Assembly (NCBI RefSeq): GCF_019320115.1
Contig: NC_089581.1
Coordinates: 14,871,925-14,935,924 of the forward strand
DNA from: Miscanthus floridulus
Lineage: Eukaryota > Streptophyta > Magnoliopsida > Poales > Poaceae
Direction: 5' to 3'
Length of the DNA stretch: 64,000 bases
Shown here: positions 30,754-31,680 of the stretch, in pieces
Layout: each line of letters starts with the position of its first letter
How positions within the stretch are numbered: position 1 is the first letter of the stretch
Notes under the pieces: generated by a model
What the model saw: only the letters and a program-made list of their open reading frames with translations
Told to the model about the DNA's origin: nothing
The model's database searches: none
Position numbers and translations under genes: made by a program

Positions 30754-31680
30754 ATGGCACGCACCAAGCAGACTGCTCGCAAGTCCACCAGAGGCAGAGC
30801 TCCTAGCCGTCAGCTTGCTCCACGTACCCGTCAACGCCACACGTTCCTTGGAGAGTTTGGGATGCCTACACTCTTGTGGAGAGTGCTCAGCTATGTAGGT
30901 TATCCTGATGGAATGGAACCCCGCTACTTCTGGGCGAATGAGCGGTTGGGAGAAGGTCTCTTAGTTATAGTGGAGGCCATTGTTCGTCCCTGAGGTGACG
31001 ATTCAGAGTGGACAGGCTGGTGTTATGAGTCAACTGGCAGGACTGCTGAAGAAGCAGCTGGCAGGGCAGCCTTTGGGATCTTGAGGAATATCATGGATCG
31101 TTTTCCTCAAGAACTGGTAGCCGCTTTGGTTGGAGTCTTTCCAAGAGGTAACCCATCCACTGACTCATGGCAGCAGGCAAGAGGAAGATCTTTGGAGATT
31201 GGTGCAGCAGAAGGGCAGAATAGCGATAACCCTGCCATGAGCGCCATGTTCGCAATGATGAGAGTGTTAGATGGAGTTGAGGGTAGCCTCAGATGTGTGT
31301 CTGGTGCACTTGGTCATGCCCACGAGGATCGACGTCAGCTTCAGAGGGAGCATGACGCCGAGATTGAGAGGCTCACTGAAGAGATGACTCGGTTAACTCA
31401 CCAGCGAAATGCAGCTTGGTCCAGGGAAGATGTCCTGAGGGCTCGACAGTTTGAGCTAGGACAGCAGCTGGCCAATGCGGAAGAATACAACGATAATCTG
31501 CATGAAGAGGTTCATCTACTGCGCAATCAGCTCCACCCTTATGTCCCACCTGGAGCCGTAGAAATGGATCTAGAAGGATACGAGGAAGGTGAAGAAGAAG
31601 TGGAGCCTGAAGAAGAAGTAGAACCTGAGGAATGAGATGATTCTGTGTCTGACCTCGATAGTGATCACGATGAGGATTAG
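30754..31680 (+). pseudogene. Extra ORF of element A with histone H3-tail-like N-terminus
   Basis: The frame from ATG 30754 to TAG 31678-31680 spans 309 codons and is broken by TGA at codon 80 (30991-30993) and codon 294 (31633-31635). Residues 1-22 read [12 protein letters not shown], then [10 protein letters not shown]. After Met removal, positions 1-11 equal the histone H3 tail exactly, keeping K4, R8, K9 and S10. H3 K14, K18, K23 and K27 all correspond to Arg, and G12, R17 and T22 are changed. No histone fold follows. Residues ~30-160 form an unidentified domain (FGMPTLLWRVLSYVGYPDG, then after the stop EWTGWCYESTGRTAEEAAG). Residues ~190-260 look like a coiled coil rich in E, R, L and Q, and residues ~270-308 are an acidic tail. 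A possible splice acceptor (GTGCAG) touches the ATG; a longer frame opens at 30715. Function is unknown. Confidence 0.8.

Follow-up and report, generated by a model that had tools for sequence, protein, structure and literature searches.

The locus raises the question of how a reading frame in a grass retrotransposon has come to begin with the tail of histone H3, whether this resemblance belongs to one copy or to a whole family, and what it might be good for. The frame, an additional ORF termed ORF0, lies with its H3-like tail inside one Ty3/gypsy LTR retrotransposon of Miscanthus floridulus (25601-40872). All coordinates refer to the window, i.e. the whole stretch of 64,000 nucleotides that was analysed.

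The element and its ORF0

The element is built as follows:

25596..25600, no strand: left copy of the target-site duplication ACTAC, directly 5' of the 5' LTR
25601..29986, + strand: 5' LTR (TG...CA), aligned with the 3' LTR
29989..30000, + strand: primer binding site TGGTATCAGAGC, read directly
30270..30753, + strand: predicted leader intron, AAG/GTAAGAT ... GTGCAG/ATG, inferred from a conserved donor and the YAG acceptor
30754..31680, + strand: ORF0, additional ORF 5' of gag and on the same strand, with stops at codons 80 and 294
30757..30825, + strand: histone H3-like tail, H3 A1-R23 at codons 2-24, by sequence match to H3
30862..31101, + strand: alpha-beta-beta-beta-alpha domain with a dsRBD-like fold, by correspondence to residues 38-117 of the related database record P0014
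31231..31533, + strand: coiled coil (approximate), shorter in the window's family than in P0014
31561..31677, + strand: acidic C-terminal tail, read directly
32033..36223, + strand: gag-pol with zinc knuckle, protease, RT, RNase H and integrase; gag ATG at 32033, behind CGCAG
36224..36442, + strand: chromodomain stretch (Pfam Chromo), past a stop codon and 3' of the integrase
36477..36487, + strand: polypurine tract, read directly
36489..40872, + strand: 3' LTR, aligned with the 5' LTR
40873..40877, no strand: right copy of the target-site duplication ACTAC, directly 3' of the 3' LTR

The domain order gag-PR-RT-RH-INT makes this a Ty3/gypsy element, which from its architecture we take to be a chromovirus of the Tekay/Del type; the primer binding site is presumably of the initiator-tRNA-Met type. 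The chromodomain stretch matches Pfam Chromo with E=7.6e-5 and 23.0 bits, under the curated cut-off of 25.1. Both LTRs are approximately 4.39 kb long and 98.4% identical over an alignment of 4391 bases, and at the grass substitution rate of 1.3e-8 per site and year their divergence of 1.6% would give the element an age of about 0.6 million years. The copy is defective: ORF0, which had been taken for an open frame, is broken by TGA at codon 80 (30991-30993) and at codon 294 (31633-31635), and one further stop each is found in gag (32408-32410) and ahead of the chromodomain (36221-36223). The gag ATG stands directly behind CAG (32030-32035), after a T-rich stretch. The sequence suggests that messages for gag and for ORF0 may arise by alternative use of two acceptors.

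Elsewhere in the window there is a second, broken Ty3/gypsy element with pieces of gag, RT and integrase (43534-50058, - strand), and a tblastn search of the 64 kb with ORF0 as query detected no other stretch resembling it. Two long ORFs at 17889-19412 (- strand) have no Pfam match at E<=0.001 and presumably resemble a hAT-type transposase; host-like genes encode a GNAT-family acetyltransferase (13498-14382, + strand) and a C2H2 zinc-finger protein (56610-57752, - strand).

Residues 2-12 of ORF0 are identical to H3 positions 1-11, and QLA at H3 19-21 is kept as well, as the initial annotation had read directly from the window. In phmmer comparisons with PDB sequences, residues 1-79 of the window copy match histone H3 with E=4e-5 and a 15-row profile of the tail does so with E=7e-13; by sequence, ORF0 carries an N-terminal H3 tail. 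A chance match to H3 was considered and dropped. The similarity stops at codon 24, and codons 25-36 agree with H3 at 0-2 of 12 positions in eight representative copies. Of the later lysines said to correspond to Arg, K14, K18 and K23 do so in the window copy, but for K27 the correspondence is meaningless because it falls outside the homologous part. Behind the tail there is no histone fold, in agreement with the initial annotation: no Pfam histone family is matched at E<=1, and a dsRBD-like fold and the coiled coil follow instead. A histone pseudogene overlapping the element was dropped as an explanation, since the body of ORF0 is conserved behind the tail.

This body had been described as an unknown domain, a coiled coil and an acidic tail. 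The last two stand, and the domain can now be named by its alpha-beta-beta-beta-alpha fold, which is that of dsRBDs and is shared with the plant dsRBD proteins DRB7.2, DRB4, HYL1, DCL3 and DCL4. In contrast, no Pfam dsRBD match was seen for the ORF0 domain, and by eye it mostly lacks the lysines of the KKxAK helix, the usual RNA-binding element of dsRBDs. Pfam dsRBD was matched neither by P0014 at E<=0.1 nor by P0101, P0012 and P0055 at E<=5, none was seen for further members of the set among the 25 of 53 families displayed, and the Pfam matches on ORF0 are weak coiled-coil families only. Because the KKxAK lysines are mostly absent, RNA binding by the domain appears doubtful, and protein binding seems more likely; the highest-scoring fold matches include the dsRBDs of DRB7.2 and DCL4, which are described as protein-binding. 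In one abundant lineage (loci L063-L082; records P0031-P0037 and P0039-P0042) ORF0 consists of H3 tail, coiled coil and acidic end only. All eleven records have the tail and lack the middle domain, and 150 of 150 best-scored copies of this lineage match from residue 1 or 2 of a query that held the tail.

Frames of this kind have been published. For Retrosat2, RIRE3 and RIRE8 an ORF0 has been described, without an established function and, in the part of the source available, with enzyme-like roles proposed from models (PMC3485330); for the 5'aORFs of Tekay elements, the accessible sections report a DRBM-like structural similarity (maize and sorghum aORFs) and a predicted nuclear location (PMC11728184). 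Like the frame in the window, these lie between 5' LTR and gag in grass elements of the Tekay type with long LTRs, the likeness to Retrosat2, RIRE3 and RIRE8 being seen here in position and description. The ORF itself is thus published, which qualifies the initial remark that no such plant retrotransposon ORF was known, but its tail seems unreported in the literature searched: the word "histone" occurs 0 times in the main text of PMC3485330 and of PMC11728184, and the available portions of reviews on additional ORFs and host factors (PMC7264820, PMC12786077) and on mimicry (PMC10208167, PMC12937675) contain no such case. Mainly among the top-ranked results of the open literature, with subscription papers mostly outside this scope, no publication was found that describes a retrotransposon ORF with an H3 tail.

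Conservation of the tail and of its start

A tail confined to the window copy was ruled out, and a check for relatives without it found the start conserved across diverged ORF0 lineages. With a tail-bearing query, 52 relatives were found at E<=1. A tail-free profile built from seven sequences yielded 289 matches, and among the 120 listed, on which the results rest, all nine relatives that start at least 30 residues upstream of the PTLLWR motif have the tail (P0014, P0023, P0073, P0084, P0085, P0101, P0113, P0115, P0119; P0014 and P0023 are themselves profile rows, with tails removed). With the tail-bearing search added, 11 of 11 relatives reaching at least 30 residues upstream begin with it. 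Twelve of 149 proteins extend at least 15 residues upstream of PTLLWR; eleven have the whole tail and P0053 begins inside it, records starting at an internal Met being uninformative on its presence.

In a set of 24 tails, comprising the window and 23 database records (without P0052, in which S10 is changed to Lys, and P0149, a histone), R2, A7, K9, P16 and L20 do not vary. K4 is found in 21 tails and is Arg in the other three, and K14, K18 and K23 are retained in 1, 0 and 0 tails, respectively. P0052 is a more distant ORF0, also with an H3-like start. Mean column identity in 10 sequences is 0.76 for the tail, 0.55 for the linker and 0.59 for the body (one-sided P=0.007 for tail above body and 0.04 for tail above linker; 0.03 and 0.10 with five sequences, one per lineage). 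No ORF0 relatives were found in viral, prokaryotic-genome and plasmid collections. A search with residues 1-40, in a length window that shut out ordinary H3, revealed no other tail-bearing family; its 13 candidates included six matches, three of them ORF0 records and three histone-like with E above 2.

The best-scoring matches in the host genome number at least 150 for window residues 1-79, at least 150 for P0039, at least 150 for P0113 and at least 123 for P0014, in sets that overlap and hold the best by score. All scored matches to these four queries, each of which held the tail, begin no later than query residue 4 and hence span the tail. Each of five ORF0 genome searches scored 123-150 copies, beside 7,569-13,563 loose first-look candidates, mostly unscored. 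As a tail-free control, P0012 was used as query; from its 128 matches, rows 10, 20 ... 120 were sampled (12 of 128, hand-counted) and inspected over 200 bases round the start, and the tail, K4, K9 and a YAG before the ATG were present in 12 of 12. Decay is visible in these control copies as stops in the tail at position 5 (L107, L112) or position 19 (L101, L106, L110, L111); in L102, position 10 is Tyr and Lys is kept at 14.

The place of the tail at the extreme N-terminus, as initially proposed, is not self-evident, given in-frame ATGs just upstream of ORF0 in the window (30739, 30745, also 30715) and upstream in most other copies, but it is supported by what precedes the start in the family. 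In 67 of 68 loci the start is immediately preceded by a YAG (the exception is L085; in L073 the ATG is lost). It occurs within TTGCTACAG or TTGCTATAG in five lineages, and the window's family mostly has GGTGCAG or GGTACAG. An in-frame stop comes right before the ATG in L004, L066, L080, L083, L102, L110 and L112 (TAG/ATG in the last three), and L064 and L065 have a stop at -15 with no ATG after it. A GTAAG donor, chosen from 18 GT candidates in the window, lies 484 bases upstream of ORF0 and recurs at this position in 27 of 30 family-A copies; in three inspected copies of family F a GTAAGT donor is found about 495 bases upstream. With the YAG before the start and the stops directly before the ATG in several copies, conserved coding starts at the H3 methionine, and splicing to it would be the simplest reading.

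In the 68 loci, which represent six lineages but not 68 independent events, since two families of young relatives account for at least 50 of them, K4, K9, S10, G13 and P16 are present in 68 of 68 and K14 is Arg throughout. R8 is kept in 66, A7 in 65 and R2 in 62 loci; T11 (47/68) and Q5 (44/68) are kept less. Pooled pN/pS between lineages is 0.25 for codons 2-24 and 0.18 for codons 2-17 (28 pairs of eight representative copies from approximately six lineages in our grouping, with P101a/P101b and P119/P119b as one lineage per pair), compared to 0.37 for the body (96 codons; 21 pairs of seven copies, the copy without a body being omitted), values to be read with the high pS (0.55), the short tail and the non-independent pairs in mind, and with many copies old and broken, so that part of the change is neutral. 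Neutral change had been named as the outcome that would speak against a conserved mimic; the tail codons are instead under constraint, and the loss of the later lysines beside a retained K4/K9 window, first noted in one copy, extends to the family. The K4/K9 end of the tail is what selection keeps. As a conserved imitation of a modifiable H3-tail motif, the tail is in sequence terms a histone mimic, and it is very probably maintained for its H3-like sequence.

Origin of the tail

Both intronless (L031-L050) and split H3 genes occur in the host genome. In nine of 12 further H3 regions (L051-L059), with boundaries read from the sequence, the first coding exon consists of exactly codons 1-24 and is followed by GT; among the other three, L060 lacks a split at codon 24, L061 has no match, and L062 holds a diverged first exon of H3 type. 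The ORF0 tail likewise spans 24 codons, equal in extent to the first exon of the nine split genes. In addition, codons for shared amino acids are identical more often than expected: in family A, 13 of 18 agree with the best split gene compared to 6.6 expected (P=0.00075). This excess has P<0.01 in six of eight copies, uncorrected for the choice of the best of nine genes, the remaining two being P101a (0.09) and lineage F (0.0503, after P=0.02 in an earlier two-lineage test with another codon-usage set). It is weaker against the best intronless gene (P<0.05 in seven of eight copies). Because of the shared extent and the excess of shared codons, we consider it highly probable that the ORF0 tail descends from a host H3 gene, and of the two origins first offered, host-derived or convergent, the former is thus favoured.

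Under convergence, selection for a K4/K9 mimic would have shaped the tail out of unrelated sequence, with no H3 gene as ancestor. The viral H3 mimics described in the available part of PMC10208167 are indeed short motifs, and the codon excess is modest, with two of eight copies missing significance. However, the match spans 23 residues, some of which K9 readers are not known to need, and it stops where the first coding exon of split H3 genes stops, with identical codons in excess, and we regard convergence as very unlikely.

Within a host origin, an exon of a split H3 gene in particular is the likely donor, which is preferred because of the exon boundary more than because of base identity. In eight of eight copies a split gene is the top nucleotide match, with 50-57 identical bases of 72 versus 48-55 for intronless genes and a margin of 1-5 bases, and the P119 pair shows higher mean identity to intronless genes (split 49.0 v 51.4 and 51.8 v 52.8); the separation of split and intronless donors appears weak. 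The first exon is preceded by TGCAG/ATG in L051-L053 and by CTAG in L054-L055, and the TGCAG/ATG genes are not the best nucleotide matches to the ORF0 tail. Plant H3.3 genes have introns, and the donor was presumably of this type. Capture of host gene fragments, as apparently in ORF0, is known for LTR retrotransposons such as Bs1 of maize. The transduced ORFs treated in the accessible part of a review (PMC7264820) occur in one or a few copies; ORF0, in contrast, is found across diverged lineages and is constrained.

Possible roles of the tail

The explanation that we favour, if by a modest measure, is that a captured H3 exon is kept as an H3-tail mimic that engages writers or readers of the H3 tail. 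An ancestor of these Tekay chromoviruses would have captured 24 codons of a host H3 gene, which most likely contained introns and contributed its first coding exon, perhaps with the splice acceptor before its ATG, and purifying selection would since then have kept the tail. Splicing of the leader intron to the YAG would make the H3 methionine the first codon, and upon removal of this Met the protein would begin A1-R2-T-K4-x-T-A-R-K9-S10 like H3, presumably with A1 exposed, the methylatable K4 and K9 being kept and the acetylatable K14, K18 and K23 changed mostly to Arg or His. The coiled coil, together with the dsRBD-fold domain in most lineages, would carry and probably multimerise the tails. 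Host writers and readers of the H3 N-terminus (K9 methyltransferases, readers of K9me or K4me0) might then bind or methylate these, and ORF0 might act as a multivalent decoy or adaptor that cuts silencing of the element. That the tail engages H3-tail proteins is fairly probable; an anti-silencing decoy in particular is a tentative proposal. A two-armed anti-silencing protein, whose tail would be K9-methylated and occupy the K9-methylation and reader machinery and whose dsRBD-fold domain would engage the small-RNA machinery, is more speculative and somewhat unlikely in this full form; as a candidate twist, the element's own chromodomain may read the ORF0 tail.

Alternatively, H3-tail binders might read the tail so that ORF0 brings the RNA or integration complex of the element to chosen chromatin, beside the integrase chromodomain. 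The chromodomain-like stretch, although below the Pfam cut-off, and the coiled coil, which offers multimers, are consistent with such a tether, but a tail mimic imitates nucleosomes and does not bind them, and we know of no link between ORF0 and integrase. Sunflower Tekay group 2, which has a 5'aORF, goes to chromosome arms and groups without it are found near centromeres, but according to the same available sections the sunflower aORF has no sequence similarity to grass aORFs (PMC11728184). Taken together, we regard tethering as rather unlikely.

The captured exon might also serve only to bring ORF0 into the nucleus. The H3 tail itself is recognised by importins, and the ORF0 tail stays basic, with R/H/R at positions 14, 18 and 23 fitting a plain basic import signal; the 5'aORFs of other species analysed are predicted to be nuclear in the part of PMC11728184 available. 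However, a plain NLS needs charge and neither the kept A1, T6, A7, S10, G13, P16 and L20 nor a fixed place behind a splice acceptor, which makes import as the sole role improbable. Finally, a passive relic that supplies start codon and splice acceptor and is conserved for RNA processing only would agree with the nearly constant YAG and ATG at the 5' end of ORF0, but is hardly credible, as amino acids and not bases are conserved in the tail (pooled pS 0.55, pN 0.136).

Histone mimicry has so far been described for viruses, largely in the form of short motifs. The mimics named in the part of PMC10208167 at hand, among them influenza NS1 (ARSK) and SARS-CoV-2 ORF8 (ARKS), are like ORF0 non-histone proteins of genetic parasites that imitate modifiable residues of the H3 tail. 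In contrast to these short motifs, of which that of NS1 is C-terminal, ORF0 has 23 residues at its N-terminus, apparently from a captured exon, in a plant retrotransposon with 123-150 copies scored per ORF0 genome search.

The H3-tail mimic of this retrotransposon protein is thus real and conserved, and it appears to derive from an exon. If the favoured explanation is true, a whole H3 tail was taken as an exon and is held at a protein N-terminus under constraint in an abundant retrotransposon family, and an abundant element negotiates with silencing chromatin by imitating the histone itself. The partners of type II chromodomains are given as unidentified in the available part of PMC6317226, and an H3-tail mimic may bear on their ligand. 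The ORF0 of grass Tekay elements, long an orphan, would thereby gain a concrete biochemical hypothesis.
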